Source: Cephalotus follicularis (lineage: Eukaryota > Streptophyta > Magnoliopsida > Oxalidales > Cephalotaceae). From it: DNA of 64,000 nt. The number at the start of each line of letters is the position of its first letter. The stretch's first letter is position 1. Positions 2,111-50,791 of the stretch are shown one piece after another. Position numbers and translations under genes: made by a program. The stretch lies in contig BDDD01000048.1 in assembly GCA_001972305.1 (NCBI GenBank), positions 62,001-126,000 on the forward strand, in the 5' to 3' direction. The notes below the pieces were generated by a model. It worked only from the letters and a program-made list of their open reading frames with translations, searched no databases and was not told where the DNA came from.

Positions 2111-2288
2111 CATCAGATTGTCAAGGTAATCTCAATTTCCTGTTGTCCTTTGGTTGGATTTCTTTGATTGGTTTAAAATTCTATACTTTTCTCTTGGTCT
2201 TGTTCTCTTTGGTCTCGTGTGTACAGCCGGTTAAAAAATTAATTGTGGTGTTCTTGCTGTGTTTTCGTGTTCTTGGTACTCATTACAG

Positions 2289-4011
2289 GTTAGTAATCTT
2301 ACTGTAATGATTCGTTTCTCTAGTCTTTGGTTTTTGTTGTTGGTATTCTTGGTATTTTCTAAGTTTTGATCTCCTGTATAATTATATGTTTTGTCATGGT
2401 ATTAGTTGGTTGTCAGCATGTTTTGTGTACCATAACTTGTCACAAACTAGTTTTAAAAGTCTGTAAATTACACTGGATAGAAAACTAGACATATATGTAT
2501 GCATTGTCTTCTTGCTTCCTTTTGAAAGTTAAGTCACTGTCCAGATAATTCTATGTCAATTGTGTGTTTCTATGTCACCTAAATGTCATATATGGTCATA
2601 TGATTGTGTCCTTGTGTCACTGGATTAGTTTTGTGCTTATTAGAACTCGTTTATGTATTGAATTGTCTAGTTTCCTACTGTTCTATCGTCCAGAACAGTC
2701 GGCTGTTCCTGTGGACAGTTGGCTGGATTGGATGAACAGCCGACTGCCATATGAACACAGTCGACTGTTTTGGGTTGAGTAGTCGACTGGATCTATGAAC
2801 CAGTTGACTATCTGCATGCTGGTTTGAGTAGTCGACTGGCCCTTGTGATTTGTCGACTGCCAAGCTTCCCCAGTCGGCTGGTGCTCTGTAATAGTCGACT
2901 GTTTTGCCCAGAAATGTACTGTTTTCAACTGTTTTGATCCGTTTGTTCTCGGAATCGATCCGAGTCTTTTCTAAACACAGTAATGAGTCTGTTAAATGTT
3001 TCTAATGTGTCTTAGACTCTTATACGTGTGGCTTTGGTGTCTTTTAGATTGTTGTGCCTCAAGTGGAGTTTGTTTGAATCATCTATCCGTAAGTGCATTG
3101 TAAACGCATAAGGTACGGATACTTCGTTCCTTGATACACTCTTATGATTTCATCAAATAAAATCAGTTTTGCTTTATACTATGTTTCTTCGTTTATGAAA
3201 TTGATAATGTTTTATGGTCTTGACATGTTTCGAAAATAATGATGGTTCGGATATTTATGAATGATTCCGACTTTATACGAAATGGTACGAAATGTTATGA
3301 TATGTTATGATCATCTCTTTTATGGTGGAAATAAATGACTTGATATCGTTGGCGAACGATTTGTGAATATGTTTTGTGAAAGCATATTTTATGTGTTTTA
3401 AATTGATTTTGATAAATCAATGTTTTCTAAATGATTAAATACTGAGTATTGTACCCACCTATGGGGCGTACCATAGGCACGTAGTGGGCCTGGCACGGGG
3501 ACGTGACACTTCCATAGCGGTGTGATTAGTCTATGACGTCTCTGAGTGTTATGAATAAATCCCATGAGGTGGATTTATGGATCCGCTATGCATGATAGAG
3601 GCGTATGAATCGATTCTAGTTTTTGATATGTGATCTGAGGTGAAATCAGAGATGTGATCTGTGAGAATTGACTTGTGCAGTGCCGTACACTTCAATTCTA
3701 GTGGGCATGTGGAATTAGCGCCTCCCTTGCCAATATATGATATGAAATGTGATATGTATGTGGCTCAAAATGTGATATGTATGTGGCTCAGTATGATTCT
3801 GTGAATTATGAAATGATGATTTGAAATGTTTCGTAAATGTTTCGAAAGATATGAAATTGGTATTTGAATATGATTAAACTGTTTTAATTGCTTAAGATTT
3901 CCGTTACGAATTTTATTGAAATCTTACTGCTTTTAAATTTATTGTGTATTGTTTTATTTCCCTTATCCGTACTGAGGTTTACTCAGCCGCGTTTTTGTTT
4001 CCATGCGACAG
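2289..4011 (+). other. Putative leader intron inside the G1 LTR
   Basis: A good donor context, ACAG then GTTAGT, stands at 2285-2294. A pyrimidine-rich run followed by GCGACAG ends at 4011 and suits an acceptor. Both sites recur at the same relative places in G4 and S4. If used, splicing removes about 1.7 kb, including the palindrome array, from the untranslated leader when this LTR sits at the 5' end. This is inferred from sequence only. Confidence 0.45.
2697..2900. repeat. Phased palindrome array, word AGTCGACT (G1 LTR)
   Basis: Ten copies of AGTCGACT or a close variant (AGTCGGCT, AGTTGGCT, AGCCGACT, AGTTGACT) start at 2697, 2717, 2738, 2759, 2781, 2802, 2830, 2851, 2872 and 2893. Steps are 20, 21, 21, 22, 21, 28, 21, 21 and 21 bp. 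The spacers share no sequence, so this is not an ordinary tandem repeat. The two G4 LTRs carry the same ten positions. Confidence 0.9.
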
Positions 4012-4350
4012 GTTATCGGGAGCATCGGGGAAATGTGTGAACGAATGATGACTACCCTATGTCTTTGGATCCCTAGGAGTGTGATCCCCATGTTATGTCT
4101 AGTGGTCATAAACAATGATATTTATGTTTTCAGCTTTTAAATTTGGAACTTGGATATGTTTGAGTTTTTCCGCATATGATTAATTGCTAAGTTTTTAATG
4201 TTTCAGTTATGATTAGACCGCCACGTTTTTGGCTAATAAGGTAATGTTATGATCTGATAAAGTTATGTTTATGCTCAGATAAGTTATGATATACTTTGAT
4301 AGGTTCTGTTTTATGTCCTGTGACGACTCCCGCCGTCCAGGGGTGTTACA

Positions 4351-15800: not shown

Positions 15801-15949
15801 AGTCGACTGCATCAAGATCCAGTCGGCTACTCAAAGGTGGCAGTCGACTGTGTGGCAACTCAACCTGCGTATGAATCCAGTCGACTGGGACAGGGGTCCA
15901 GTACACTGTGTAAGGCCAAACAATCGACTGTTTCAAGAGGCAGTCGACT
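15801..15949. repeat. Phased palindrome array, word AGTCGACT (S4)
   Basis: Words start at 15801, 15821, 15842, 15879, 15900, 15922 and 15942, in steps of 20, 21, 37, 21, 22 and 20 bp. Variants are AGTCGGCT, AGTACACT and AATCGACT. The spacers are unrelated. Confidence 0.88.
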
Positions 15950-22026: not shown

Positions 22027-23325
22027 TGTCACACCCCGTTTTGAGATGACGACATTAAAGCGGTAAAGGCAATTAACACATAAATTCAGCTCATGCAAAT
22101 ACCATAAAATTTAAGCTTATAAATAAGATATCAGTTGCGGAAGCATAAGGTTCATAAGCTGAAAATACGTAACGTGCATCCCATACTGCACGCTACCCAA
22201 TTACAAGTCATTGTTAAAAGCCCACAAATGGAGCGTGATCACAGTACATTAAAGAAAGCCCAGTCTTATCAAAACCAACAGAATGGTACATTAGAATCTT
22301 AACACAACAGTTTATTACAAAGCGAAAGAACATAAAGCCAACAACAAGAAGCTAAGACTTGCTCTTCGTCCATGCTATCCCACCAGTCAGCTGCATCAAT
22401 CTGTAAAGTAGGGGGTTAGCCTTTGTACTCACTCGGCTAAGTCATAAAAGTAGTTCGGGAATTAACATTAAAAGCATGTCATGATATGAATGCATAGATG
22501 ATGCAGTACAGTAGAAATCCCAGTTTATATATATATGAAAATATATGTTTAACAATACAGTAAAATATCAGAGGGGGCATATATATATATATGTAAATAT
22601 ATGTATGCAACAACAGTACAGTAGTAACCCGGCCAAGGTTACATCAACATGCACAGTAATGTTCGAGAAGGACCAACAGGCAGTACAGGATGTCCATAAA
22701 GGACCACAACAAGCAAGCAGTATATGTAACACCGCCAACTCCTAGCCCCACGCTACACTCCCACTCCGTTCCCTACTTGAAGCAACCGAGCGAGGCAACA
22801 GTACAGTACAGTGAGTCACCCAGCCATACTCCTGGCCCCTAGGTCAACCCTACCACTAGCCGGCGCTGGCAGCCTCCGCCATGCAACTAGTGGCTCAAGC
22901 ACAAACACATAGAAATTCACAGAGCAACCAGTGAATCAGACAGTAAATAGTGTAGTAACAGTACAGTGGTGATCGTTAGGTCGACAACAGGCAGTTCATT
23001 TCCGAAATGTTTCCAAAAGTGACAACATTGAAATATGCATTTTCGGTAGAAAATACTTTTAAACAGTTTCAGTAGTGTAAATCGCTTTCCAAAGATGTTA
23101 GAAAATACGAAAACAATATTCATTTCGTACTTAACATAGTAGTTTCAATTTATATATGCATTTCTAAAGTAGCAATACTTAGAAATCATAATCCGATTAC
23201 AAACGGTCCAGAACAGGCAGTAAACAGTGTATATGCATTGCATACAAATGCTCAAATTCAACCAAGAAGGAATCGGGATCGTTTCGCATTGTTTTAAGCA
23301 AGAAGAGTCCAACAACAGTCCAACC

Positions 23326-23592
23326 AGTCGACTGGAATCCTTACCAGTCGGCTGTTCTGGGTCGAGCAGTACCAGGTAGTCGGCTGGTTCCTTCTACCAG
23401 TCGACTGTCCATCAGGCAGTCGGCTGTTATCCTTCAACAGTCGACAATTACTGCACACCCGTTCAAAAACGTTACCCAGATCACACTTCCTGCCACTTTC
23501 TGGGCAGGATGAAGTATGAACAGTCGACTGCTTTCCATTGACAGTCGACTGGTTCCATTGAGTAGTCGGCTGTCTTCCTTCGACAGTTGGCT
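23326..23592. repeat. Phased palindrome array, downstream block (G2 3' LTR)
   Basis: Words start at 23326, 23346, 23378, 23399, 23418, 23439, 23522, 23543, 23564 and 23585. Steps are 20, 32, 21, 19, 21, 83, 21, 21 and 21; 83 is within one base of four periods. Because AGTCGACT reads Ser-Arg-Leu on both strands, it creates spurious open frames such as 23516-23755. Confidence 0.9.
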
Positions 23593-24421
23593 GCCCCGCG
23601 AACCAGTTGCATGCAAATCGATCTATCTACTCCAACGGATCATTGTAAGCAGAGAATTCAAGCTCAAGGACAGAAACATAACTACAGGTTATCACATCGT
23701 CCATATAACACCTCATCCAACATACATTTCATCATACAAGTCAACACCAAGATAAGGGTTCAACATGCATGCACATAATCTCATTTGATTCTTAGTAGCA
23801 AGCATAGTGGATGAAAAACAGTAGCAACCACGTCCTAAAACCAGTGGGTACAACTCACGCATGCAGGCATTCAAATCATAGAACATGCAGTAACTTTAAA
23901 CTCAAAATACCATTACAACTTCCCCTACCTTTTGATTCCAAGTTAGGGATCTGTAAGTCCACCTCTTTGTGTTCCAACAGTGACGTTTTGGGCTCCCCAG
24001 AAGTTCCAACGCCAAGCCCAGTAGCTCCAAGAACAGCCCAAAAGCTCCAACCCGAGCTCCAAGCTTCAACAATGGAGAAACACTCCCTTCCCTCTTTTCT
24101 CTGTGTTTTTCTCTACTATCCTCTTTGGTTCTTAGACCTTTTCAGTACTAGGACGAAGGAGATGAGGGAAGACGTTTTATGCAGAGTGTTTCTCTCCCTC
24201 TCTGCCTTAGCTCCCCTCACATGGCACTAAATGCCACTTTCCTTCTCCACATGCATGCACACACTCACAGGTCTAAACTCCTTCCCCCCATGAAGTTTGC
24301 ATGATCCACAGGTGTCCTCTTCTTCCATTCCTTAGCTGCATGAAACACAGATGGCACCCACTTCCATCTGTCAGCTGTAGCATGTGATTTCCGTCACATG
24401 CAACAAAACAGAGCACGATCC

Positions 24422-24570
24422 AGTCGGCTGTCCACACATAACACCCGGCTGCTTGCCTGGCAGATCGTTACCATGTGGCTCGACAGTTGGCCAGTCGACT
24501 GGTTCATCCCTCCAGTCGACTGCTCCCATACTCAGTCAACCAGTCGGCTGGTCTACTGCACCAGTCGACT
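24422..24570. repeat. Phased palindrome array, upstream block (G2 3' LTR)
   Basis: AGTCGGCT at 24422, a CCCGGCT variant at 24443, AGTCGACT at 24493 and 24514, AGTCAACC at 24534, AGTCGGCT at 24542 and AGTCGACT at 24563. Principal steps are 20-21 bp, with two extra half-overlapping words 8 bp away. It lies 160-300 bp inside the LTR start, upstream of any plausible TATA. Confidence 0.82.
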
Positions 24571-24726
24571 GCTCTTTGTGTACATACTAAGAAATCACAC
24601 TTCTAAGTACTTAATTGATTTAAAATCAACATCATAAAATTCGGAAAATCCATCCGTTTATTAATTCCACAAATAAAGTACATTTACATTGTGAAATTAC
24701 AATACATGAAATTTTCGGGCGTTACA

Positions 24727-25556: not shown

Positions 25557-26034
25557 TGTAATACCCTGCTTACCTGTACGTAATTTTCTTACGGGTTTTA
25601 ATTGTTTCGTTTATGTATTTATCCGTAGTATGTTGGGTTTACGTTTTTGGGCTGACTGATACCAGCCTTATTTTTGTTTGGGCTTGTGGGTATGGATTTG
25701 ATTATTGGATAAGTAGCTATATTATATTTTATTATTACAAGCAATTCTATTAAACACATAATTATATTTTCAGAAATTATCTTATTTTAAAAACAAAATC
25801 CTTATTATTAACTTTAATTCCTTTTCTATTTTATTTCCTTTTCTCTTATTTTCCTTTTCTATTTTTATTTCCTTTTCTCTCAAACTCTCCCTCCCTCTCA
25901 CGACACCTCTCACTCTCTCTCAACATTCTCTTCCGAAATCTCTTCATCTTAATGGTTACACGGCAATAATCTCCTTCTTCCATATTTAGATGATTGTGTC
26001 TCATGGTTTCCTTATCCTTTTCCCCAAATTCCTC
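25557..26034 (+). mobile_element. G3 5' LTR remnant (first 478 bp)
   Basis: It begins TGTAATACCCTGC and breaks off after CCCCAAATTCCT. The 3' copy continues at that point with different sequence (27887). A pyrimidine-rich CTCTC/TTCC tract at 25860-25930 may be promoter or leader. Confidence 0.9.
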
Positions 26035-27606
26035 CAACAACAGAACCGGGAACACGTTGCTGAAGAGAATGTTCTGGCAGAGGTTCAGGCGGGTGTGGAA
26101 GCTGGGGATAGGCATGACACCCCTACTCATGTTTGGCTTGAGCGGTTTCAGAAACAGAGGCCGCAGTCCTTCAGTTCAGCTGTGACACCAGTGGAAGTTG
26201 AACACTGGATAACACATATGGAGAAGATCTTCAATGTTCTGAGGTGTGATGATCAGCAGAAGGTAAGATTGGCGACTTACAAATTAGAAGGGGATGCTCA
26301 GAAGTGGTGGAATACTCTGAATTCGGCCAAGGGTGATGGTTACGCTGATGCTCTGTCATGGTTTGAGTTCCGGGATGTCTTCTATCAGCAGTATTTCCCC
26401 ACTGCTGATAAGGAGGCCTACGCTAGAGAGTTCGTAAACACTAGGCAGAAGGATGGAGAGACAGTTTCAGAGTTCTTGGCCCGTTTCACTAGATTAGCTG
26501 GGTTTGCTGGATCCGCGGCTGGATCAGCGTCTGAGCAAGCTGAAAAATTCAAGTGGAAGTTGCATTACCTGTTTCGGGGGAAGCTGATCAACTCTAGGTT
26601 TTCGGATGTAGCTGAGGTTGCCAATGCCGCGAAAAACATTGAATTAGAGAGACTGGATTTTCAGGCAGCACCTCTGGAAGGAGATAAGAAGCGGAATAGG
26701 AATGAGCAAGGTTGTGGACAGCAGAACAAGGGTCAAGGCAATTCATGGAACAGGGGAAGAGGAGGTAAGCAACATAAGAAAGATCACAATCAGAATAGGG
26801 ATGGTAATCAACAGCGTCAGCAAGGAAATGCACAGGGAGCTGATGGGGGTAACCCCGATGTTCAAATTGCTAAGTGCGATGCTTGTGGTAGGTATCATCC
26901 AGTAGGTACCTGTTATAAAGTCAGTGGGGCTTGCTTTGTATGTGGGCAGATGGGGCACTTCGCGAAGGATTGTCAGGATCCTCGTGCTAAGGAAAGGAAG
27001 GGTAATGGTGCAAATGCTGGGCAGCGTAATGTTGGAGGCCGAGTCTTCGCAATTACGACTCATCAGGCAGCTAATGCTCCAGGTATGATTTCGGGTTTTA
27101 TTTCTGTTGGTAACCGTAGAGCTTATGTGTTATATGATACTGGATCGACACACTCGGTTGTGGCGAGATCTTTTGTTCGGCATCTTCGTATGCCTTCGCA
27201 GTTGTTTGATCCTGGTTTAGTTCTTTCTATCCCTATGGGGACATCTGTTGTGATATCTGAGTGTTTCTATGATTGCCCTATTTTTTTTGACGATCGGATT
27301 CGTGATGCGAATCTTTTTCCGATGGATATGTATGATTTCGATATGATTCTAGGGATGGATTGGTTGGAGCTTCATCGGGCTACAATTGATTGTCACGCTC
27401 GGAGAGTTCTGTTTGGAGATGTGGAGCGACCAGTAATTTTCTTACGGGTTTTAATTGTTTCGTTTATGTATTTATCCGTAGTATGTTGGGTTTACGTTTT
27501 TGGGCTGACTGATACCAGCCTTATTTTTGTTTGGGCTTGTGGGTATGGATTTGATTATTGGATAAGTAGCTATATTATATTTTATTATTACAAACAATTC
27601 TATTAA
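25990..27606 (+). CDS. Chimeric LTR-Gag-protease-LTR open frame (538 codons, uninterrupted)
   Basis: Residues 1-15 (from MIVSHGFL) come from 5' LTR sequence. Next comes the Gag capsid region (VEHWITHMEKIFNVLRC and WKLHYLFRGKLINSRF). A basic Q/N/G-rich linker follows, then a CDACGRYHPVGTC half-knuckle and a full CCHC knuckle (CFVCGQMGHFAKDC). The protease active site is YDTGSTHS, and a FDMILGMDWL block follows. The last 50 or so residues are LTR-derived and very hydrophobic (from VIFLRVL, ending YYYKQFY), reading like membrane segments. It is the only long intact frame in the window. G1 and G4 homologues are full of stops, so the integrity may reflect youth. Whether it is expressed is unknown; the 5' LTR piece may not include the whole promoter. 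Confidence 0.75.
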   Translation: MIVSHGFLILFPKFLQQQNREHVAEENVLAEVQAGVEAGDRHDTPTHVWLERFQKQRPQSFSSAVTPVEVEHWITHMEKIFNVLRCDDQQKVRLATYKLEGDAQKWWNTLNSAKGDGYADALSWFEFRDVFYQQYFPTADKEAYAREFVNTRQKDGETVSEFLARFTRLAGFAGSAAGSASEQAEKFKWKLHYLFRGKLINSRFSDVAEVANAAKNIELERLDFQAAPLEGDKKRNRNEQGCGQQNKGQGNSWNRGRGGKQHKKDHNQNRDGNQQRQQGNAQGADGGNPDVQIAKCDACGRYHPVGTCYKVSGACFVCGQMGHFAKDCQDPRAKERKGNGANAGQRNVGGRVFAITTHQAANAPGMISGFISVGNRRAYVLYDTGSTHSVVARSFVRHLRMPSQLFDPGLVLSIPMGTSVVISECFYDCPIFFDDRIRDANLFPMDMYDFDMILGMDWLELHRATIDCHARRVLFGDVERPVIFLRVLIVSFMYLSVVCWVYVFGLTDTSLIFVWACGYGFDYWISSYIIFYYYKQFY

Positions 27607-29022
27607 ACACATAATTATATTTTCAGAAATTATCTTATTTTAAAAACAAAATCCTTATTATTAACTTTAATTCCTTTTCTATTTTATTTCCTTTTCTCTT
27701 ATTTTCCTTTTCTATTTTTATTTCCTTTTCTCTCAAACTCTCCCTCCCTCTCACGACACCTCTCACTCTCTCTCAACATTCTCTTCCGAAATCTCTTCAT
27801 CTTAATGGTTACACGGCAATAATCTCCTTCTTCCATATTTAGATGATTGTGTCTCATGGTTTCCTTATCCTTTTCCCCAAATTCCTATTCTTTTCCGATT
27901 GGGTTTATGTTGCTATATATGGGTGTCAAGACTTCATCTCTGTCATATCTTCTTGCTGCCGAATCTGCCATTTGAAGGGTCATTGTCTTCTTAGTGTTCT
28001 TGCTCCATTTAACAGGTTAGTTCTTCATGATTTGTACATAGATATCGTTTTTGGTAATATTGGAAATGGTGGCTGGCTTGAAATTTTTATGTCCTTCTCT
28101 AATTTTTCTTTTATGATCAGCCACTGTGTCACTCAATTGGTATTCCTGCAATCGTTCTTGACTTTTAACAGGTTAGTTTTCCATAGGGTTATGCCTTAGT
28201 ATTTGGTTTTTGGATCATCGTCAGCAAAAATATGAACTTTTGTTGCTATAAATGATTTTAATTATTATTTCGGCATCCTTGTTTTTCTGTCAAATGAATA
28301 TGTGTTTAGAGCCTGCTGTAGACGTCTAGGATGTGTTAATAATCTATTGTTCATGTATATAATCACCTGAATTGGACAGAATTGAATTGGGTAATGGTGT
28401 GCCATGGTTTAAAGTCCCTACCACATAGGAATAATTTTCTGTTAATGAGGTTCTGTCAGATTCAGTGATGTAATGTGGTTTTACATGTCATATAAGGTTG
28501 TTCTTAATGCTGGTAATCATCTGGTAATGAACGAATCAATTATGGGCAGCAAGATTGCATCAAATCTGCCATTTTCTGGTTTCTATCGAGCAAGGCAATC
28601 GGCTGCCCTATGAATGCAGTCGACTGGTTGTCCTATTCAGTCGGCTGGATACCCTGTTTCAGTCGACTGGTTGCTATCTGGTCTAAAGTAGTCAACTCCT
28701 TATTTTGATAGTCGACTTGTTTAAAATTATGCAGTCGACTGGTTCTTTATTTCAGTCGACTGTCTGCAAGTCCAGGTTGGGTAGTCGACTGGCCCTGTTT
28801 TACAGCATGTGGTCATAGTGGAACCACATAAATTGACCAATATGTTAATTTCAGTTTATGATTTTGGATTTTGAATAAGCTCAAGTTTATGATCAGTTTT
28901 ACATGTTATGGTTACGCTTTAAACCATCACGTTTTAATAATGATGAACTATTCAATATGATGTGACCTGTTTAGTTTTGGTATTATGCACTGTGGCGACT
29001 CCCACGTCTCGGGGGTGTTACA
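27439..29022 (+). mobile_element. G3 3' LTR (lacks about the first 24 bp)
   Basis: It aligns with 25581-26034 and then extends to GGGGGTGTTACA at 29022. It holds two donor-like ACAG-GTTAG sites (GT at 28016 and 28172), a phased array (28597-28790), and an acceptor-like ATGTTAATTTCAG near 28852. The inferred full LTR is about 1.6 kb. Confidence 0.88.
28597..28790. repeat. Phased palindrome array, word AGTCGACT (G3 LTR)
   Basis: Nine words start at 28597, 28618, 28639, 28661, 28690, 28710, 28733, 28754 and 28783, in steps of 21, 21, 22, 29, 20, 23, 21 and 29 bp. Its steps and spacers differ from those of G1/G4, so this is a separately evolved version of the array. Confidence 0.88.
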
Positions 29023-29691
29023 ACTCAGGTTTAGCTTCGTCCCGAAAGCTGTCTGAAACCTCTTCCAGAAGTTGGAAGTGAAGATAGCATCTCTATCACA
29101 TACAATACTGACTGGAACACCGTGTAGCCTTACTATCTCATTCACATACAAACGAGCTAGCTTGCTCGCAGAATCAGTAACGTGTGTAGGCAGAAAGTGT
29201 GTTGATTTGGTGAGTCTATCCACGACAACCCACACGGTGTTGTGATGGTTCCTAGTCAGAGGAAAACCCGAAACAAAATCCATCGTGACATGTTCCCATT
29301 TCCACTCTGTAATTGGTAAGGGTTGTAGCAAACCTGCCGGTCTCCGGTGTTCGGCCTTAACTGTCTGGCAAGTCAAACACCTTGCCACATACTCGGCGAT
29401 CTCTCGTTTCATGCCAAGCCACCAGTAAGTCTTCTTCATATCCTGGTACATTTTAGTGCTACCAGGATGGATGCTGTACAAAGATTTATGAGCCCCACGA
29501 AGTAACTCACTCTTAATCCCTGGTTCATTCGGAAGACACACACATCCCCGATATCTCAGAATACCATCAGCATGCACTCCAAAATCGGATTCCGAGTCCA
29601 GGTTCTCCCGAATTCGTTGCAGCTCCGGATCGTGTGGTTGTGCATCCCTGATGTGATCCAGTAACACAGGCTGTACTCGCATGTCAGCCAC
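29023..29691 (-). pseudogene. G2 integrase N-terminal half
   Basis: The minus-strand frame begins MADMRVQPVLL. The zinc-binding module shows the His pair (around HKSLYSIHPG) and CLTCQ. The catalytic core shows the first Asp in TMDFVSGFP and the second in SIVCDRDAIF. The third catalytic residue, Glu, is across G3 in the 24740-25551 piece. Integrase joins element DNA to host DNA. The frame is open here, but the gene is split by G3. Confidence 0.92.
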
Positions 29692-29724
29692 AAAGATCCC
29701 CGATGACTGATTGAACGGAGAACA

Positions 29725-30645
29725 TTATTGGATGTCTTCTAGCATCTTCCATTGCGACACCATCGCACTGGCAACCATAGCCTTGCAGCTCAAGGCATCA
29801 GCGACTACATTCGCTTTCCCCGGGTGGTACTGAACACTGCAATCATAATCATTAAAGAATTCTACCCACCTGCGCTGTCTCATGTTCTGTGTGTTCTGAC
29901 TAAACAGGTACCTCAAACTCCTATGATCGGTAAAGATCTCAAACTGCGCCCCATAAAGATAGTGCCTCCACTTCTGAAGGGTAAAGATAATAGCTGCAAG
30001 CTCAAGGTCATGAGTCGGGTAGTTTTCTTCATACGGTTTCAGCTTTCTCGAGGCAGATGCAATCAATCTACCTCGCTGCATCAATACACAGCCCAAACCC
30101 TTACCCGATGCTTCACTATAGACTGCAAAGTCGTCATTACCATCAGGTAATGCCAAGACAGGAGCGGAAACTAACCGATCCTTTAGTTCACGGAAACTAG
30201 CTTCACAGTCTTCATCCCAGACAAAAGGGGTCTTCTTCTGGGTTAGTCTAGTCAAGGGCTCGGCTATCCTTGAAAAGTTCTGGATGAACCTTCTGTAATA
30301 CCCCGCCAATCCAAGGAAACTGCGCACCTCCGTCACGTTCTTCGGTTGTGGCCAGTCTCGTACTACTTCAGTCTTCGACGGATCCACCGTCAAGCCTTTC
30401 CCATATATGATGTGACCGAGAAAGATCACATGATTAAGCCAGAACTCACACTTGCCAAACTTGGCGTACAACCGATGTTCCTTGAGAACTTGCAATAATA
30501 TCGTCAGATGATGAGTGTGCTCCCCCTCACTCCTCGAGTATACCAGTACGCCATCAATAAACACTATAACAATAGATCCAGGTATGGCTGGAACACGTCA
30601 TTCCTCTTGTTCATGCCATGTAACTCCATGCAAAACTCCTTGACT
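29725..30645 (-). pseudogene. G2 RT C-terminal half and RNase H, catalytic changes
   Basis: Frame 30564-29725 encodes the RT palm end, thumb and RNase H. The RT metal site reads FIDG where the family has FIDD. RNase H reads YSEAS where YxDAS is usual, while the other acidic residues ([21 protein letters not shown]) are present. A one-base shift just before FIDG (near 30575) separates the preceding [12 protein letters not shown] block. Sequence before 30645 is no longer RT. The usual upstream RT blocks and the protease are missing. Confidence 0.88.
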
Positions 30646-31775: not shown

Positions 31776-31788
31776 TGCTCTGATACCA
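31776..31788 (-). other. G2 primer-binding site (tRNA-iMet)
   Basis: Minus-strand TGGTATCAGAGCA lies three bases from the 5' LTR end at 31792. It matches the complement of the initiator-Met tRNA 3' end. Confidence 0.9.
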
Positions 31789-33089
31789 TGCTGTCACACC
31801 CCGTTTCAAGATGACGACATTAAAGCGGTAAAGGCAATTAACACATAAATTCAGCTCATGCAAATACCATAACATTTAAGCTTATAAACAAGATATCAGT
31901 TGCGGAAGCATAAGGTTCATAAGCTGAAAATACGTAACGTGCATCCCATACTGCACGCTACCCAATTACAAGCCATTGTTAAAAGCCCACAAACGGAGCA
32001 TGATCACAGTACATTAAAGAAAGCCCAGTCTTATCAAAACCAACAGAACGGTACATTGGAATCTTAACACAATAGTTTATTAAAAAGTAAAAGAACATAA
32101 AGCCAACAACAAGAAGCTAAGACTTGCTCTTCGTCCATGCTATCCCACCAGTCAACAGCATCAATCTGTAAAGTAGGGGGTTAGCCTTTGTCCTCACTCG
32201 GCTAAGTCATAAAAGTAGTTTGGGAATTAACATTAAAAGCAGGTCATGATATGAATGCATAGATGATACAGTGTAGCAGAAATCCCAGTTTATATATATA
32301 TGAAAATATATGTTTAACAATACAGTAAAATATCAGAGGGGGCATATATATATATATGAAAATATATGTATGCAACAACAGTACAGTAGTAACCCGGCCA
32401 GGGTTACATCAACATGCACAGTAATGTCCGAGAAGGACCAACAGGCAGTACAGGATGTCCATAAAGGACCACAACAAGCAAGAAGTATATGAACGCTGCC
32501 AACTCCTAGCCCCATGCTACACTCCCACTCCGGTCCCTACTTCAAGCAACCGAGCGAGGCAACAATACAGTACAGTGAGTCACCCAGCCATACTCCTGGC
32601 TTCTAGGTCAAGCCTACCACTAGCCGACGCTGGTAGCCTCCGCCATGCAACTAGTGGCTCAAGCACAAACACATAGAAATTCACAGAGCAACCAGTGAAT
32701 CAGACCGTAAATAGTGTAGTAACAGTACAGTGGTGATCGTTAGGTCGACAACAGGCAGTTCATTTCCGAAATGTTTCCAAAAGTGACAACATTGAAATAT
32801 GCATTTTCGGTAGAAAATACTTTTAAACAGTTTCAGTAGTGGAAATTGCTTTCCAAAGATGTTCAAAAATACAAAAACAATATTCATTTCGTACTTAACA
32901 TAGTAGTTTCAATTTATGTATGCATTTCTAAAGTAGCAATACATAGAAATCATAATCCGATTACAAACGGTCCAGAACATGCAGTAAACAGTGTATATGC
33001 AATGCATACAAATGCTCAAATGCATCCTAGCAGGAATCGGGATCGTTTCGCATTGTTTTAAGCAAGAAGAGCCCAACAGCAGTCCAACT

Positions 33090-33356
33090 AGTCGGTTGGA
33101 ATCCTTACCAGTCGGCTGTTCTGGGTCGAGCAGTACCAGGTAGTCGACTGGTTCCTTCTACCAGTCGACTGTCCATCAGGCAATCGGCTGTTTTCCTTCA
33201 ATAGTCGACTGTTACTGCACACCCATTCAAAAACGTTACCCAGATCACACTTTCTGCCACTTTCTGGTCAGGATGAAGTATGAACAGTCGACTGCTTTCC
33301 ATTGACAGTCGACTGGTTCCATTGAGTAGTCGGCTGTCTTCCTTCGACAGTCGGCT
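33090..33356. repeat. Phased palindrome array (G2 5' LTR)
   Basis: The partner of the 23326-23592 array, with the same layout and a few base changes (for example AGTCGGTT at 33090). The last word starts at 33349. Confidence 0.88.
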
Positions 33357-36459: not shown

Positions 36460-36625
36460 CAAAGGCGTCGACGTCTTTTACTTAGACGTCGATGTCTTTT
36501 CTCCTTTTGTAAGAAGGTGTCGATGCTTTCCTTCCAAGTCGATGTGCATGCCACGCATCCACGCGTATCTCAAGACCCAAAGGCGTCGACGTCTTTCCAA
36601 AAGGCATCGATGTCTTTGTCCCAAA
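36460..36625. repeat. Word cluster GGCGTCGACGTCTTT (S1, upstream block)
   Basis: Words at about 36466, 36486, 36517, 36538, 36585 and 36606, again with many steps near 20-21 bp. This occupies the same place in S1 as the upstream AGTCGACT array does in G2. Confidence 0.75.
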
Positions 36626-36794: not shown

Positions 36795-36890
36795 CAGTTG
36801 GCCAATCGACTGGTTCATCCCTCCAGTCGACTGCTCCCATACGCAGTTAACCAGTCGGCTGGTCTACTGCACCAGTCGACTGCTCTTAGT
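36795..36890. repeat. Upstream palindrome array remnant (G2 5' LTR)
   Basis: The partner of 24485-24570. AGTTGGCC, AATCGACT, AGTCGACT, AGTTAACC, AGTCGGCT and AGTCGACT words follow each other. The first words of the array lie on the other side of S1, near 34186. Confidence 0.8.
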
Positions 36891-41483: not shown

Positions 41484-43903
41484 TGTAACACCCCCAGACG
41501 GCGGGAGTCGTCACAGGACATATCATAGCATAACATAACTTATCATAACATAACTTAACAGCTGAAAACCTGGTGGTCATATCATATCTGAAATTTAAAC
41601 AAACTGTTCAAAACTTAACAATTTAACAATTACGGAAAATAAACTTAAACTTAAAACATAACCCAATTTCGAAATTAAAACATAAACATATGTATCTCAA
41701 AAGTGTTCATGACCACTAGACATAAAATAAGGATCACACTCCTAGGGATCCTAACACAAAAGGTGGTCATCACTCGTCACACTTTCCGCCGCTACTCCTG
41801 AAAACCTGCCGCATGGAAACAAAAACGCGGTTGAGCAAACCTCAGTACGGATAAGGGAAATAAAAACAGTAAACGATAATTTAAAAGTAGTAAGATTTCA
41901 ATAATATCGTAACAGAAATCTCAAGTAATTAAAACGATACATAATTGTAAAATCATATTTGTACTTTCATAAATCCAGATAACTTTCGAAACATTTACGA
42001 TGCATTTCATAAAATCATCATAGGTTATAAATCACAAATCATACTGAGCCACATACATAACGCCTCTATCACATAGCGGATCCATAAATCCACCTCATGG
42101 GATTTATTCATACACTCAGAGACGCCGTAGACTAATCACACCGCTACGGAAGTGTCACGTCCCCGTGCCAGGCCCATGACGTGCCTATGGTACGCCCCAT
42201 AGGTGGGTACAATACTCAGTATTCATTTCAAAATATTGATTTATCAAAATCAATTTAAAATCATATAAAAATATGCTTTCACAAAACATATCGAAAAACC
42301 GCTCACAACGGTATCATAACATACATTTCATACACATATCATATCATTTCATATCATATGTATAAAGTCGGAATCATTTAAAAATATCAAACCAACTTTA
42401 ATTTTGGAACATATCAAAACCATAAAACATTATCGATTTCATAAACGAAGAAGCATATCAAAACTGTTTTCAGTTCGAATATCAGATAGCCAAGGAACAG
42501 AAAATCCGTACCTTATGCGCTCACAAAGTACTTACGGATAGACGATTTAAACGGAATCCATTTGAAGCACAATAATATAAAAGGCATCCAAAATCATACG
42601 TATAAGAGTCTAAGATACATCAGAAGCATTAAACAGACTCTTAACAGTGTTTGGAAAAGACTCGGATCGATTCGAGGAACAAACGAAGCAAAACAGTTGA
42701 AAACAGTACATTTCTGGGCAAAACAGTCGACTATAACAGAGCTCCAACCGACTGGGGAAGCTTGGCAGTCGACTATTCATAAGGTCCAGTCGACTACTCA
42801 AACTAGAATGCAGGCAGTCGACTGGTTCATAGGTCCAGTCGACTACTCAACCTAAGGCAGTCGACTGTGTTCATATGGCAGTCTGCTGCTCATCCAATCC
42901 AGCCGACTGTCCACAGGAACAGCCGACTGTTCTGGGCGACAGAACAGTTGGAAATTAGACAATTCAATACTGAAAATGGTTCAAATGGTTTCTACATTAA
43001 ACCAGAGACATATGGACATAAACATATGATCATGTATGACTTTTATATGACTCAGGAACACAGAATTGACAAGAAAACAACTTGACAGTGACTTATCTTT
43101 CAAAACGAAGCAAGAAGACAATGCAAATATATGTCCAGATTCTGTCCATTATCAATTACAGATGTTATAAACCCAGTTTATGACATAACTATGTGTATAA
43201 AACGTGTTGATAATCTTATTAAAACAATGACAACACATTTAAATATGGGAATTGAAACCAGAAGATATCTAGAGCATAAAACCGAAATTATGCCATTGAA
43301 ACAAAACCATCACTAGGGGAAACGAATTAACTGACCTGTAATGATTTCCCAGAACACGAAAACAGTAGAAGGAACACTAGCACACACTCACAAACGGCTG
43401 TGTACAAAACAGAGGAAGAAGAAAAGAACCAAAACCAAGACATGCTTAGCAAATCAACAGGATTCAATCCAAAAGAACAGAAAAGGACTGGGATTACCTC
43501 TTCGAATTTGATGAAACGATTACACAACAGCTTGACACACACTCACAAGGCAGAATCGGCTGTGGCACAATGCAAAAAAAGAAGAATGCAATTATAGAAT
43601 GGCAATGGCACTCACAAAAGGAAAAAGGAGACAAAAACCTACTATAAAGGGAAGAAAGGAGGATTTCAGGGGATTAGAAAAGGAAAAGGAGATTGAAAAA
43701 GAGTGGAATTTAATGAGGGAGAGGGAGGACTTCGGGAGAGGAAGAAGGAGAAAAGGAAAGAAGAGAAGAAAATAGGAAGAAAAAGAATAAAGAAAAAGAA
43801 AAATAAAAGGAAAAATAAAAATAATAAAAATAATGAAATAAAAGGATTTTTAAAATAATAAAAATTGTTTTAATAAAATAAAACTTGCTTAATTAAAATA
43901 AAA
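41484..43903 (-). mobile_element. G4 3' LTR (5' side truncated)
   Basis: It begins TGTAACACCCCC and joins integrase coding sequence near 43903. Donor-like (43335) and acceptor-like (41806) sites flank the array 42725-42928. It retains the conserved GTACGCCCCATAGG-containing block that the 5' LTR has lost. Confidence 0.9.
42725..42928. repeat. Phased palindrome array (G4 3' LTR)
   Basis: Words start at 42725, 42746, 42767, 42788, 42816, 42837, 42859, 42880, 42901 and 42921. Steps of 21, 21, 21, 28, 21, 22, 21, 21 and 20 are the mirror image of G1. Confidence 0.9.
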
Positions 43904-46064
43904 GCCAACATTCGAAAGGCCCGATAAAACGTGGACTCAACTTTCCTTTCAGCCCAAAATGTCGGACTCCTTTCCAAGGTGAAACTTTTAAGAACACATG
44001 TTCACCAACCTTGAACTCCAAATCCCTCCGATGTCTGTTCGCATAACTCTTCTGTCGAGATTGAGCCGCTTTTAATCTCTCCCTTGCTATTGCCACTTTC
44101 TCCGTAGTGATCTGTACTAGCTCGGGTCCCTCGATAACTCGCTCTCCAACTTCATCCCAACAAGTCGGAGCACGACACTTCCTCCCATACAGAGCTTCAA
44201 ACGGCGCCATACCGATACTAGCATGCCAACTGTTATTGTAGGCAAACTCCACCAAGCTCAAATACTCATCCCAGCTCCCAGTCCACTCTAAAGCACAAGA
44301 CCTCAACATATCCTCTAAGATCTGGATGGTTCTCTCAGTCTGCCCATCTGTCTATGGATGAAAAGCTGTACTGTAACTGAGCCTAGTACCCCAAGCTTTC
44401 TGAAACCCCTTCCAAAACCGCGATGTGAAGCGAGGATCCCTATCCGAAACAATGGATATCGGAGTCCCATGCAGTCTCACTATCTCCTGCTGAAATACCT
44501 CAGCCAAACGGTCAACAGAGAAGTCCTCTTGGATAGCCAAGAAGTGAGTCGATTTCGTCAATCGATCCACTACTACCCAGATAGCATCATTCCTTCTGAA
44601 AGTTCTCGGTAAACCCATCACAAAGTCCATCGAAATACTTTCCCATTTCCATACCGGAACTTCGAAGGGCTGTAACAAACCACTAGCACGTTGGTGCTCA
44701 ATCTTTACCTGCTGACAGATCAAACACTTCCCAACGTACTCCGCAACATCCCTTTTCATTCCATTCCACCAGAAGTTCTTCTTCAAGTCCCTATACATTT
44801 TCGTAGAACCCGGATGTATAGAAAATGGAGAACTGTGTGCCTCCGACAAAACATCATCTCTGATAGAAGAATCTGACATAACGCACAACCGATTACCCAG
44901 CCATATCACGCCATGCGCATCCATACGGAACTCTGATTGCTTACCCTTTTCAACATTCTGGACTAAGGCCGAAAGCTTACCATCATCACTCTGAGCTGTC
45001 TTAATCCGAGATATAAGAGTAGGCTCAACATTCATCGCAACAACACAACCTTCAGAACCCCGAACATACAGATGTAAATCCATGCGTTCCATATCAGCTA
45101 TCACCTGCGGCTGAGTAAGCAAAGCCGCTACACTCCCAGAACTCTTCCGACTAAGAGCATCAGCTACCACATTTTCTTTACCAGGATGGTATTGAATATT
45201 CAAATCATAGTCTTTCAGAAGTTCTAACCATCTTCTCTGACGCATGTTCAATTCTTTCTGCGTAAAGATGTACTTAAGACTCTTATGATCGATAAAGACG
45301 TCACAAGTTTCTCCGGACAAGTAGTGCCTCCAAATCTTAAATGCAAACACTACCGCTGCCAACTCAAGATCATGTGTAGGATAGTTCACTTCATACGGCT
45401 TCAACTGTCTTGAAGCATAAGCTATCACATGACCGTGCTACATCATAACACAACCCAAACCTTTCTTAGAAGCATCGCTGTATATCTGGTATCCACCCGA
45501 CCCAGACGGTAAATGAAGAATCGGTGCTGACACATGACCATTCTTCAGTTTCTTGAAACTTGCTTCACGCTTCTCATTCCATTCGAACTTAGCTCCTTTT
45601 CTCATAACCTGAGTTAGCGGTAAGGCTATAGAGGAAAATCCTTCCACAAACCGCCTATAATATCCAGCCAATCCCAAGAAGCTCCTAACCTCCATCACTG
45701 TGGCAGGTCTTGGCCATTTAGTAATAGCCTTAACTTTAGCAGGATCCACACAGATACCTTCAGCTGTAACCACATGACCCAAAAACGCCACCTGTTCCAA
45801 CCAGAACTCACACTTCGAGAATTTCGCGTAAAGCTGATTCTTCCTCAGAATACTCAACACAATGCGAAGATGTTCTTCATGTTCTTCCTTCGACTTGGAA
45901 TACACAAGAATGTCATCTATGAACACAATAACAAATTGATCCAAGTACTCATGGAACACCCTATTCATCAGATCCATGAAAACTGCCGGTGCATTAGTGA
46001 GTCCAAAAGGCATTACCCAAAACTCATAATGCCCATACCGAGTACGGAAAGCAGTTTTAGGCAC
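43904..46064 (-). pseudogene. G4 RT (second half), RNase H and integrase
   Basis: [11 protein letters not shown] is intact (near 45900). RNase [29 protein letters not shown] and VVADALS are intact. Integrase shows [34 protein letters not shown] and, after a TAG, the region before WDEYLSLVEFAYNN. The conserved KVGEHVFLKVSPWKG block ends at FIGPFE, where LTR sequence starts. In-frame stops are TAG at 45438-45440 and 44352-44354. Most frames between stops are open and all major catalytic residues seen are conserved. Confidence 0.93.
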
Positions 46065-48131
46065 ATCTTCATCCTTTATCCGAAGCTAATGATATCCCGA
46101 TCTCAAATCGATCTTCGAGAAATACCGAGCTCCTTGGAGTTGATCAAACAAGTCATCAATCCTAGGTAGTGGGTATTTATTCCGAACAATAATTCGGTTC
46201 AACTCTCTGTAGTCTATGCATAACCTCATAGACCCGTCTTTCTTCTTCACAAACAGAACCGGAGAACCCCACGGCGAAACACTCGGCCGAATGAAACCCC
46301 GATCCAACAGCTCTTGCAACTGTTCTTTCAACTCTTGCAGTTCCAACAGTGCCATTCTGTAAGGTGACTTAGATATAGGTGGCGCTCCAGGAATGAGTTC
46401 GATGGTAAACTCCACTTCCCGTTGCGGTGGCAAACCCGGTAACTCCTCCGGAAACCTATCAGAAAATTCTTTGACCACAGGATAGTCTTCAAGGTGAGGC
46501 TCAACCTTTGAGACATCCTTCACAACAGCTAAGAAACCTTCAGCGCCCTTAGCCACTAATTTCTGAGCCTTCAGAGCTGATATAACTTTCACTTCCTTCC
46601 TCGGCTATGAACCCTGATAAACAAACTTAGGACTATTCACATCCCCAAACAGAACCCTATGAGCATAGCAGTCGATCGTATCTCGATGATGATCCAACCA
46701 ATTCATTCCCAGAATCATATCGAAGTCATACATATCGATAGGCAAAAGATCCGCATCACGAATCCGATCATCGAAAACAAGAGGACAAGCATAAAAACAC
46801 TCAGCAATCACAACAGAAGAACCCATAGGGGTCGAAAGAACCAAAGCTGGATAAGGAAATTGAGAAGACATCCCAAGATGCCGAACAAAAGACCTCGCTA
46901 CAACCGAGTGGGTCGATCCAGTATCATATTAAACATAAGCCCTACGGTTACCAACATAAATAAAGCCCGAAATAGTACCTGGTGCATTAGCAGCCTGCTG
47001 AGTCGTGATAGCAAAGACACGACCTCCCACATTGCACTGTCCATGATCTGCATTGTTCCCCTTCCTTTCCTTTACACGAGGGTCAGGACAATCCTTCACG
47101 AAATGCCCTTTCTGTCCACACACAAAACAGGCCCCGATAGCCTTGTAGCACACTCCCACTGGATGCTGTCTACCACACATATCACACTTGGCAATCTGAA
47201 CATCCGCAGCTCCCTGAGTCTGCCTCTGGTCATTACCGGGCTGTTGCTGTCCCCGGTTATCATTTCTCTTCCCTCTCTTACCATTCCTATTCTTATTGTG
47301 TCCAGAACATTGCCCTTGAGAATCACCTCTGTTCCTCTTTCTGTCACTCTCTTGTCGAGCTGCCTGGAAATCTAACCTTTCCAGCTCTATGTTCTTAGCC
47401 GCATTGGCCACTTCAGAAACATCAGCAACCCTGGTGTTGATCAGTTTTCCCCGGAACTGGTAATGTAACTTCCACTAAAACTTTTCTGCCTGCTCCAACG
47501 CTGTCCCAGCCGCGGACCCAGCAAAACCAGCAAGCCTAGTGAAACGAGTCAAATATTCTATCACCGACTCTCCATCCTTCTGTCTGGTATTGATAAACTC
47601 TCTGGCATAAGCCTCCTTATCAGCAGTGGGAAAGTATTGCTGATAAAAGACCTCGCAAAACTCAGACCAGGTCAAAGTCTCCACATAGTTGCCACCCTTA
47701 GCCAAAACCACAGCTTTCCACCATTTCTGAGCATCACCCTCAAGCTTGTACACAGCTAACTTAATCTTCTATTCATCACTGCAACCAAGCACATCAAAGA
47801 TCTTATCCATATGAGCAAACCAGTGCTCAGCCTCCATAGGAGTCATGGCTGAGCTAAAAGACTGCGGTCTCTACTTCTGGAACTGTTCTAACCAGACATA
47901 AGTGGGTGTGTCAGTCCTGTCCCCAGCATCTCTTCCCAACTGAACATCAGCTGGAGCATCGTTAGCAACAACCGGCTCCCTGCGGCCCTGATTCTGATTC
48001 TGCTCACTCAGCGCGTGCCGTATCTCCTGAGCGATAACCTGACGTACTAGCTCCTCCATGGTAGGCGCATTTTGGGCTTCCTGAGCCTCAGCAGGTGCAG
48101 TCCTTCGAGCAGCGTTCCTTGTACGTGCCAT
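46065..48131 (-). pseudogene. G4 gag, protease and first part of RT
   Basis: Gag starts at M (48131) with MARTRNAARRTAPAEAQEAQ. The capsid blocks run to about 47480. The knuckle [14 protein letters not shown] is preceded by a half-knuckle, [13 protein letters not shown]. The protease active site is YDTGSTHS (near 46920). RT begins near 46350. Stops: TAG at 47871, 47769, 47475, 46605 and 46086, and TAA at 46929. Gag normally packages the RNA; protease cleaves the polyprotein. Confidence 0.93.
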
Positions 48132-48301: not shown

Positions 48302-50791
48302 TGTAACACCCCCGGACGACGGGAGTGGTCACAGGACATATCATAGCATAACATAACTTAACAGCTAAAAACCTGGTGGTCATATCATATCTGAAATTTA
48401 AACAAACTGTTCAAAACTTAACAATTTAACAATTGCGGAAAATAAACTTAAACTTAAAACATAACCCAGTTTCGAAATTAAAACATAAACATATGTATCT
48501 CAAAAGTGTTCATGACCACTAGACATAAAATAAGGATCACACTACTACGGATCCTAACACAAAAGGTAGTCATCACTCGTCACAGTTTCCCCCGCTGCTC
48601 CTGAAAACCTGCCGCATGGAAACAAAAACGCGACTGAGCAAACCTCAGTACGGATAAGGGAAAGAAAAACAGTAAACAATAATTTAAAAGTAGTAAGATT
48701 TCAATAATATCGTAACAGAAATCTCAAGTAATTAAAACAGATACATAATCGTAAAATCATATTTGTGCTTTCATAAATCCAGATAACTTTCGAAACATTT
48801 ACGATGCATTTCATAAAATCATCATAGGTTATAAATCATAAATCATACTGAGCCACATACATATCACATAACATAAATTTGGCAGGGGAGGCGCTAATTC
48901 CACATGCCCACTAGAATTGAACAATACTCAGTATTCATTTCAAAATATTGATTTATCAAAATCAATTTAAAATCACATAAAAATATGCTTTCACAAAACA
49001 TATCGAAAAACCGCTCACAACGGCATCATAACATACATTTCATACACATATCGTATCGTATCATTTCATATCATATGTATAAAGTCAGAATCATTTAAAA
49101 ATATCAAACCAACTTTAATTTCGGAACATATCAAAACCATAAAACATTATCGATTTCATAAACGAAGAAGCATATCAAAACTGTTTTCAGTTCGAATATC
49201 AGATAGCCAAGGAACAGAAAATCCGTACCTTCTGCGCTCACAAAGTACTTACGGATAGACGATTTAAACGGAATCCACTTGAAGCACAATAATCTAAAAG
49301 GCATCCAAAATCATACGTATAAGAGTCTACGATACATCAGAAGCATTAAACAGACTCTTAACAGTTTTTGGAAAAGACTCGGATCGATTCGAGGAACAAA
49401 CGAAGCAAAACAGTTGAAAACAGTACATATCTGGGCAAAACAGTGGACTATAACAGAGCTCCAGCCGATTGGGGAAGCTTGGCAGTCGGCTATTCATAAG
49501 GTCCAGTTGACTACTCAAACTAGAATGCAGGCAGTCGACTGGATCATAGGTCCAGTCGACTACTCAACCTAAGGCAGTCGACTGTGTTCATATGGCAGTC
49601 GGCTGCTCATCCAATCCAGCCGACTGTCCACAGGAACAACCGACTGTTCTGGGCGACAGAACAGTTGGAAATTAGACAATTCAATACTGAAAATGGTTCA
49701 AATGGTTTCTACATTAAACAAGAGACATATGGACATAAACATATGATCATGTATGACTTTTATATGACTCAGGAACACATAATTGACAAGAAAACAACTT
49801 GACAGTGACTTATCTTTCAAAATGAAGCAAGAAGGCAATGCATATATATGTCCAGATTCTGTCCATTATCAATTACAGATGTTATAAACCTAGTATATGA
49901 CATAACCATGTGTATAAAACGTGTTGACAATCTTATTAACACAATGACAACACATTTAAATATGGGAATTGAAACCAGAAGATATCTAGAGCATAAAACC
50001 GAAATTATGCCATTGAAACAAAACCATCACTAGGGGAAATGAATTAACTGACCTGTAATGATTTCCCAGAACACGAAAACAGTAGAAGGAACACTAGCAC
50101 ACACTCACAAATGGCTGTGTACAAAACAGAGGAAGAAGAAAAGAACCAAAACCAAGACATGCTTAGCAAATTAACAGGATTCAATCCAAAAGAACAGAAT
50201 AGGACTGAGATTACCTCTTCGAATTTGATGAAACGATTACACAGCAGCTTGACACACACTCACAAGGAAGAATCGGCAGTGGCACAAGGCAAAAAAAGAA
50301 GAATGCAATTATAGAATGGCAATGGCACTCACAAAAGGAAAAAGGAGACAAAAATCTGCTATAAAGGGAAGAAAGGAGGATTTCGGGGGATTAGAAAAGG
50401 AAAAGGAGATTGAAAACGAGTGGAATTTAATGAGGGAGAGGGAGGACTTCGGGAGAGGAAGAAGGAGAAAAGGAAAGAAGAGAAGAAAATAGGAAGAAAA
50501 AGAATAAAGGAAAAGAAAAATAAAAGGAAAAAGAAAAAGAATTAAAATAATGAAATAAAAGGATTTTTAAAATAAGAAAAATTGTTTTGATAAAAATAAA
50601 ATTTGCTTAATTAAAATAAAACCCAAAACCCAACATAGCATAACATACCCAAATTTCGGACTGGTATCAGTCAGCCCAATTCACATAGGCCCAAATCATA
50701 GGGCAACCAGACTTTAAAATTAAACACAATTAAAAGCCCGAAAACACACATAAAATCCGTAAAATACATTTACGAACGAGCAGGGTATTAC
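48302..50791 (-). mobile_element. G4 5' LTR (2.49 kb)
   Basis: Ends are TGTAACACCCCC at 48302 and CAGGGTATTACA at 50791. Array 49442-49645. Donor-like ACAG-GTCAGT (minus strand, GT at 50052) and acceptor-like GTTTCCATGCGGCAG (to 48609) enclose it. The AG-rich part 50390-50600 is probably the leader or promoter-proximal region. Confidence 0.93.
49442..49645. repeat. Phased palindrome array (G4 5' LTR)
   Basis: Words start at 49442, 49463, 49484, 49505, 49533, 49554, 49576, 49597, 49618 and 49638. Steps are 21, 21, 21, 28, 21, 22, 21, 21 and 20. Confidence 0.9.

Follow-up and report, generated by a model that had tools for sequence, protein, structure and literature searches.

A palindromic site repeated at about two helical turns in the LTRs of Ty3/gypsy and Ty1/copia retrotransposons of Cephalotus follicularis

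Plant LTRs carry stress boxes, such as those of Tnt1 and Tto1, and VANDALs, which are DNA transposons, carry short target words of their own. The heat-shock elements of ONSEN and DREB/CBF sites are likewise transcription-factor sites located in LTRs (PMC11656987). In VANDALs, the targets of the element-encoded VANC protein are short motifs that have been amassed by tandem repeat formation in noncoding parts of the transposon, and the word changes between related elements (PMC5735166). The closest described system is the repeated motif (RM) of Sireviruses: palindromic, CG-containing boxes, of which each element has at least eight. They occupy the upper half of the LTR, ahead of a TATA box, further copies precede the ENV gene, and the word differs between elements (PMC2829016). 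The RM bears a CGG-CCG signature with one exception (Tnd-1), it was called Sirevirus-specific, and in 2010 its authors could name no common binding factor (PMC2829016). Sireviruses are further marked by several octamers in the linker, the last of which lies at the LTR and is followed by AT/TG (PMC2829016). Here we describe arrays of a different palindromic word in LTRs of Cephalotus follicularis, and compare them with these systems.

The DNA analyzed, hereafter the window, is a stretch of 64,000 nucleotides (contig BDDD01000048.1, positions 62,001 to 126,000). An earlier note, made from the letters alone, had pointed out ten palindromic words in one LTR (G1). Their number and spacing were confirmed exactly: ten AGYCGRCT-like words start at 2697, 2717, 2738, 2759, 2781, 2802, 2830, 2851, 2872, and 2893, with start-to-start steps of 20, 21, 21, 22, 21, 28, 21, 21, and 21 bp (array A). 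Only four of the ten are exact AGTCGACT in G1, and the other six have one or two mismatches; across 42 copies of the family, however, each of the ten positions is most often occupied by either AGTCGGCT or AGTCGACT. It had also been claimed that the two LTRs of a second element (G4) keep every word position, and they do, with the same nine steps in element orientation. This is expected, because the LTR copies are homologous (G1 and G4 LTRs are 78-80% identical over the array-bearing part). The window as a whole contains 81 word matches with at most one mismatch, versus 16.3 expected (sd 4.2; largest 31; 100 dinucleotide shuffles), and arrays of the same kind start at eight further places (Table 1).

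Table 1. Arrays, LTRs and internal regions of the array-bearing elements, by position in the window
Feature	Position	Strand	Remarks
Array A	2697..2900	+	the array under study; G1 LTR; 10 words in runs of 6 + 4 split by the 28-bp step
G1 LTR body	2248..4350	+	homologous to G4 LTRs; 5' limit approximate; ends ...GGGGTGTTACA
Array D	15801..15949	-	7 words (at most 2 mismatches); LTR related to A
B element 3' LTR	22027..24726	-	
Array B1, 3' LTR of B	23326..23592	-	10 words
Array B2, same 3' LTR of B	24422..24570	-	near the 5' end of the LTR
Array E	28597..28790	+	9 words; LTR fragment related to A/D, inside element B
Integrase, RNase H and RT pieces of element B	28951..30597	-	Ty3/gypsy-type
Primer binding site beside 5' LTR of B	31778..31790	-	presumed iMet-type
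Array B1, 5' LTR of B	33090..33356	-	
Array B2, 5' LTR of B	36804..36881	-	beyond inserted solo LTR C
G4 3' LTR	41484..43907	-	
Array, G4 3' LTR	42725..42928	-	steps as in A
G4 internal pieces	43896..47474	-	zinc knuckle, RT, RNase H, integrase, SH3_Tf2-1
G4 5' LTR	48302..50625	-	presumed iMet-type primer binding site adjoining at 48286
Array, G4 5' LTR	49442..49645	-	steps as in A

Elements G4 and B are Ty3/gypsy elements, because each has RT, RNase H, and integrase in that order, a pair of LTRs, and a primer binding site which we take to be of the iMet type; in both elements the array is present in both LTRs. The LTR with array D resembles the A LTR in conserved blocks that are 85-92% identical, versus about 68% in the array region. 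Alignment between the B and A LTRs was found only in three stretches of about 33-62 bp, all inside the arrays. LTR C is 75% identical to B over its 3' half, yet it contains two scattered words and no array; the array is therefore a separable part of the LTR. C is a solo LTR (34215-36757), inserted in the 5' LTR of B beside the second array of that LTR. Element B also seems to harbor a nested non-autonomous element that has gag but no pol: at 25580-27886, 454-bp direct repeats (99.8% identical) flank a Ty3-type gag-protease ORF without pol.

The array is also found in Ty1/copia elements. In C1_3167 and C1_156311 it lies in LTRs that start with TGTTGGC after AAAAAGGGGGAGAT; C1_3167 codes for a Ty1/copia gag (Retrotran_gag_2, E 5e-32), and both elements contain an ORF of the PF20167 family. 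Their linkers carry three and four AGGGGGAG octamers, respectively, with the terminal one at the LTR and then AT/TG, as in Sireviruses, and no further copies of this octamer occur in 35.3 kb. The 5' LTR junction of C1_3167, CA/GTTGG-TATCAGAGA, is close to the Sirevirus CA/ATTGG-TATCAGAGC, though inexact. The copia LTRs contain 12, 12, 15, and 14 words, extending from +167/+178 to between +519 and +597.

In family A the words were as variable as the spacers (diversity 0.057 and 0.056, respectively, in 42 copies picked by similarity to the array), and no signal of selection after insertion was detected among these copies. Since words and spacers differ equally between copies, any selection acts in active lineages and not in dead copies. 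The diversity of the array is lower than that of its flanks, and this was rejected as a sign of selection, being an effect of how the copies were found.

The spacing of the word was then counted in the whole genome assembly (1,577 Mb, that is 1.58 Gb, in 9,746 contigs), using pairs of exact AGTCGACT and the reversed word as control. At steps of 11-41 bp there are 140,666 pairs (reversed word, 437), of which 108,824 lie at 19-22 bp (341) and 15,061 at 27-28 bp (28), versus 750 at 23-26 bp (1); the remaining 16,031 lie at 11-18 or 29-41 bp together, and are partly second neighbors (for instance, one at step 41 among the matches listed). The lack of an excess at 21 bp had been proposed beforehand as evidence against a spacing rule; the excess near 21 bp is large genome-wide, as measured against the reversed word instead of shuffled LTRs. 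Two sharp modes separated by a near-empty gap are not expected from random decay, in counts that are dominated by high-copy families. Regarding the second mode, many of the 20-bp spacers of the 27-28 bp class share, by eye and among the matches listed (C1 to C4), a CACG(C/T)A.CAG-like core, and the 27-28 bp gap may hold the site of a second factor. The lineage of array A has a different sequence in its 28-bp gap.

Forty-three arrays from the window, the C1 loci, and 20 further C1 stretches (window and contig C1 only) were clustered by their spacers and 200 bp of flanks, masking the words and one base at each side. They fell into nine groups without detectable similarity, which include Ty3/gypsy LTRs and Ty1/copia elements with Sirevirus marks. 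These nine groups represent fewer lineages, about five by our own reading, as several of them go back to two arrays within a single LTR or element; they may also be distant descendants of one array, saturation being indistinguishable from independent gain. Allowing one mismatch in the word and taking one array per group, 45 of 62 steps measure 20-22 bp, versus 5.1 in random placements (sd 2.2; largest 16 in 5000). The earlier proposal that all words sit on nearly one face of the DNA fails for a helix of 10.5 bp per turn, in which the last four words of array A, coming after its 28-bp step, are rotated by about 120 degrees relative to the first word (at 10.3 bp per turn, all would fall within about 100 degrees). 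A one-face rule for long steps in general was also rejected: of the 14 steps above 26 bp found in the nine representatives, most depart from whole turns, and the phases of the 14 cluster away from zero, at a mean of -83 degrees (Rayleigh R 0.58). Since long steps are off-phase and array A is rotated by its 28-bp step, the helical rule is two turns between neighbors inside a run, and not one face for the whole array. Runs of four words accounted for 11 of 23 runs, counted by eye from one array per group, four of them in one LTR. A copia LTR at C1 157790-158220 contains four such runs (21,20,21 / 21,21,21 / 21,20,20 / 21,20,21) joined by 50, 60, and 65 bp, and runs of four recur in other array groups.

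The bases that flank the word follow a rule of their own. Reading outward from words with at most one mismatch, the pattern G, not A, not G was found in all nine groups: G at +1 has a mean frequency of 0.86 (range 0.77-1.0), A at +2 of 0.02, and G at +3 of 0.01 (range 0-0.07); G is still uncommon at +4 and +5 (0.11 and 0.13), and composition is near flat or background from about +6. The same holds on sides with no other word 19-22 bp away (+1 G in 148/175, +2 A in 2/175, +3 G in 5/175). Since the flanks are constrained outward even where no word follows, the site is longer than the word: it is a dyad of about 14 bp, 5'-DVC-AGYCGRCT-GBH-3'. Pure avoidance of CpG was rejected as the cause of the flank rule: no more than about one site in three has C at +2, and yet G is missing at +3. 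One base is excluded while the other three stay common, which is unlike the decay of a shared ancestral consensus and, we infer, has the look of protein-DNA contact.

Changes inside the word are tolerated in a position-specific manner. CpG is expected to mutate fastest in methylated plant DNA. Among 282 word forms with at most one mismatch, AGTCGACT accounts for 172, AGCCGACT for 58, and AGTCGGCT for 30, and transitions of the central CpG for 5; A6G and T3C are thus common, and CpG decay is rare. Genome-wide, AGTCGGCT occurs 19-22 bp from an intact word 62,456 times (31,461 + 30,995; control 167), and the CpG-decayed AGTTGACT 10,047 times (4,779 + 5,268; control 201), both strands being summed. 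The decayed forms AGTTGACT and AGTCAACT would hold what we take to be the W-box core, and their rarity, in the 282 forms and, for AGTTGACT, in the genome-wide neighbor counts, led us to reject a reading of the arrays as WRKY sites. The form AGCCGACT contains GCCGAC, which we take to be the DRE/CRT core (RCCGAC). The DRE has no dyad symmetry, its binding protein acting as a monomer. In contrast, the commonest word here has GTCGAC, and GCCGAC is present, on one strand, in the 88 of 282 forms that are AGCCGACT or AGTCGGCT. DREB/CBF proteins were rejected as the sole reader, since they leave a dyad with both flanks constrained unexplained; they are possible as a partial reader. The sections of PMC11656987 compared here contain no description of one palindrome common to two superfamilies at fixed spacing.

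It had been stated that the spacers share no sequence, and this is nearly right for their middle 9 bp but wrong beside the word, where 25 of 27 spacers start with G and all 27 end with C or T. Between arrays, in element orientation, the mean identity of these cores is 0.268 versus 0.245 when shuffled (107 pairs; reached by 89 of 2000 shuffles); with the B arrays on the opposite strand, the values are 0.298 and 0.295. Within arrays it is 0.352 versus 0.299 (29 pairs; reached by 58 of 2000). The spacers had also been named as the place where recognizable decayed copies of one 21-bp unit would tell against selection on the words, and they turned out to be only marginally more alike than shuffles. 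These values bear on the idea that the array is a relic of tandem duplication, that is, an old 21-bp minisatellite with no present function whose words seem conserved by sampling. The small excess of likeness, within as well as between arrays, is what such a relic would leave, and so is the absence of word conservation within family A. Duplication itself can be seen in one copia family, which has modules about 75-76% alike at an offset of about 120 bp. In the duplicated modules of one LTR, the words are better preserved than the rest: word columns are identical in 62/64 cases and other columns in 107/133, with no gap in the words (Fisher p 0.002). Between the LTR arrays of the two copia families the lead of the words is less clear, the figures being 57/63 and 79/95, with four gap columns in the words, and both alignments are partly anchored by the words. 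However, the likeness of the spacers is marginal, the flanks exclude one base rather than favor one, the CpG is kept while A6G and T3C are tolerated, and steps of 23-26 bp are nearly absent, all of which makes a functionless relic highly improbable.

The words are also present outside the LTRs, about 80-300 bp before the PF20167 ORF, in the two copia elements and in two more loci (the first four found). For one PF20167 lineage, 20 loci spread down a list of 107 genome matches were sampled: three or more words lie upstream of the ORF in all 20, and in 18 of them a run of four is located at about -186 to -121 with steps of 20/21 (L127 and L130 differ). These 20 loci are copies of one lineage, so that one arrangement has been seen 20 times. 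The ORF itself has apparently undergone a large expansion in this genome, as an element-borne gene: a first look with the PF20167 profile gave 13,073 candidates, of which 150 were scored. The 30 best matches to the Pfam model among those scored constitute a distant subfamily (23-28% identity to P0089), and here the rule that every PF20167 ORF has the AGYCGRCT word failed, with at least two words upstream in 3/30 loci versus 1/30 in the downstream control. This failure led to a second palindrome. Using loci L091-L120 except L092, which has no sequence before its ORF (n=29), a GCGTYRACGC-like word (CGTCAACG, CGTTAACG, CGTTGACG) was found upstream of the ORF in 28 of 29, at steps of mostly 19, 31, 42-43, and 51. 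At least four CGTYRACG-like words (at most one mismatch) are present upstream in 28/29 loci, 287 in total versus 12.8 after shuffling of bases (largest 24), and each of these 28 loci has a TATA-like box within 200 bp upstream of its ORF. The exception, L095, has a AGTCGACT array upstream instead, which probably comes from a neighboring gypsy LTR. Conversely, the second palindrome was found upstream of none of the 20 sampled ORFs of the first lineage. These results indicate that the layout is kept while the word changes with the PF20167 subfamily, and that the AGYCGRCT word is not required for this kind of ORF, since the distant subfamily has a different one. A third repeated word, CCGGNCCG, occurs in several copies before some PF20167 ORFs (L093, L098-L100, and others). 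No PF20167 ORF was found in the window copies of the Ty3/gypsy elements. In sunflower, PF20167 has been reported in an extra ORF of Athila, together with a predicted nuclear localization signal (PMC11728184).

The position of the array relative to a possible start of transcription differs between LTRs. In both LTRs of one copia family, TATAAAAGG follows the last word, at 52 bp from where that word begins, and in element orientation a TATA-like box lies about 170 bp downstream of array B1 in the 3' LTR of B. In the second copia family the sole TATA match precedes the array, and in the G4 LTRs TATATAAAAG lies about 120 bp before it. No recurrent TATA-like box was found near the array in the A copies, the best place being shared by 4 of 42 copies, 119 bp before the array. 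That the array precedes the PF20167 ORF and, in some LTRs, the TATA box points to control of transcription; in G4 and in the second copia family the array may itself be transcribed, because there a TATA-like box precedes it. Transcribed arrays could form hairpins that feed the small-RNA machinery or shape the RNA of the element, in which case the palindromes would act in RNA and the DNA spacing would be incidental. Apart from these TATA-like boxes, this is favored by the high predicted stability of the array RNA (204 nt), -97.2 kcal/mol versus -85.2 (sd 4.6) when spacers were shuffled with the words in place (100 shuffles), and by the finding that the palindrome regions of maize Sirevirus LTRs are small-RNA hotspots (PMC5311732). 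However, the folding energy was nearly the same at real and at random spacing (-85.2 and -84.3); spacing adds no stability, and RNA pairing was therefore rejected as its cause, leaving the peak at 19-22 bp and the trough at 23-26 bp unexplained by RNA. Nor is there an obvious reason in RNA for excluding a base 3 bp beyond each end of the palindrome, and the array precedes the likely start in one copia LTR as well as upstream of the PF20167 ORFs. Consequently, action in RNA is regarded as unlikely.

Comparison with the Sirevirus RM shows what is shared and what differs. The earlier note knew of no named plant LTR feature of this kind and mentioned Sirevirus motif clusters as the nearest parallel: these repeated motifs are indeed the right kind, so that a precedent does exist (PMC2829016). 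The Vitis box CGGTCGACCG has the GTCGAC core in common with the present word (PMC2829016). Dyad boxes are present here in high copy in the upper LTR, in copia as in G1, and words also occur before an ORF in the ENV position, in this case PF20167. In contrast, the CGG-CCG signature is absent, as AGTCGACT has neither CGG nor CCG, and AGCCGGCT, which has both, accounts for 4 of 274 forms counted. As to a TATA box shortly after the boxes, the LTRs vary: one copia family has it and gypsy B roughly so, at about 170 bp; in G4, A, and the second copia family none was found in that place. CpG islands are formed by RM boxes (PMC2829016), whereas the arrays of two copia LTRs have a CpG o/e of 0.50 and 0.58 (0.70 and 0.45 in the rest of those LTRs). 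The present arrays also occur in Ty3/gypsy LTRs, and the sections of PMC2829016 compared here contain no description of the sharp 19-22 and 27-28 bp spacing or of the outward flank rule. The copia arrays fit the RM kind. As far as that paper was compared, the novelty lies in the occurrence in gypsy LTRs, in the rules that govern spacing and flanks, and in the link between word and ORF. Besides the cited papers, no account of the present array was found in the literature, searched by titles and the openings of abstracts.

Altogether, the array is probably a promoter-side platform that offers repeated binding sites to a putative protein, a dimer recognizing DNA by its sequence. One such dimer would occupy each dyad (about 14 bp). 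With sites spaced by about two turns of the helix (19-22 bp), and frequently grouped in fours, neighboring dimers could touch or bind cooperatively; the runs are joined by longer gaps, a recurring one being of 27-28 bp. In their bound state the arrays would drive transcription or gate it, at the LTR promoter and, for copia elements, also at a second promoter before the PF20167 ORF. As both superfamilies share the site, they would answer to the same factor. What was observed is the word, the flank rule, the spacing, the spread over two superfamilies, and the position before the ORF, whereas binding by a protein, its dimeric state, cooperativity, and activation rather than repression are inferred. 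Selection for binding by a symmetric protein, as proposed at the outset, is well supported at the level of sequence: word, spacing, and flank rule are alike in dissimilar arrays of two superfamilies, and position-specific tolerance and placement upstream of the ORF or, in some LTRs, of the TATA box add to it.

The bound protein might act otherwise than an ordinary transcription factor, and by analogy with VANC on VANDAL arrays it could alter DNA methylation or chromatin, making the array an anti-silencing platform. In both systems a short word is repeated in noncoding parts of the element and changes between related elements, here together with the ORF subfamily, and the reader, which is an element-encoded protein in VANDALs, is possibly one here (PMC5735166). 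The VANC motif, YAGTATTAY, is not the present palindrome, and helical spacing receives no mention in the sections of that paper compared here (PMC5735166). By sequence, each CAGTCGACTG site contains CG and CHG positions, but the arrays are not CpG islands by the o/e values above. This alternative, which we consider quite improbable, has its protein-binding core in common with the platform proposed above and differs only in the outcome.

As for the reader, it may be a host factor or a protein of the element; a tentative and rather doubtful candidate is the elements' own nuclear, Athila-ORF1-like PF20167 protein. Each subfamily would bind its own palindrome (AGYCGRCT in the Sirevirus-like subfamily, GCGTYRACGC in the distant one), both in the LTRs and at the promoter of its ORF, and this would serve as a switch for self-activation or against silencing. 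Gypsy elements would have picked up the word and be served by the copia factor. That the word changes with the ORF subfamily favors testing the element's own protein as reader, although shared descent alone could give this link. If the candidate were right, tens of thousands of elements from both superfamilies would be under a single trans-acting system.

The site is defined here base by base, including its flanks and spacing, forms more than 100,000 close pairs in this genome, and is common to copia and gypsy elements, so that a single probe would suffice to ask directly what reads it; whether the reader co-evolves can be tested naturally on the two ORF subfamilies, which differ in their word. 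These findings suggest that retrotransposons which are unrelated but live in the same host can come to share a regulatory code, by convergence or by theft.
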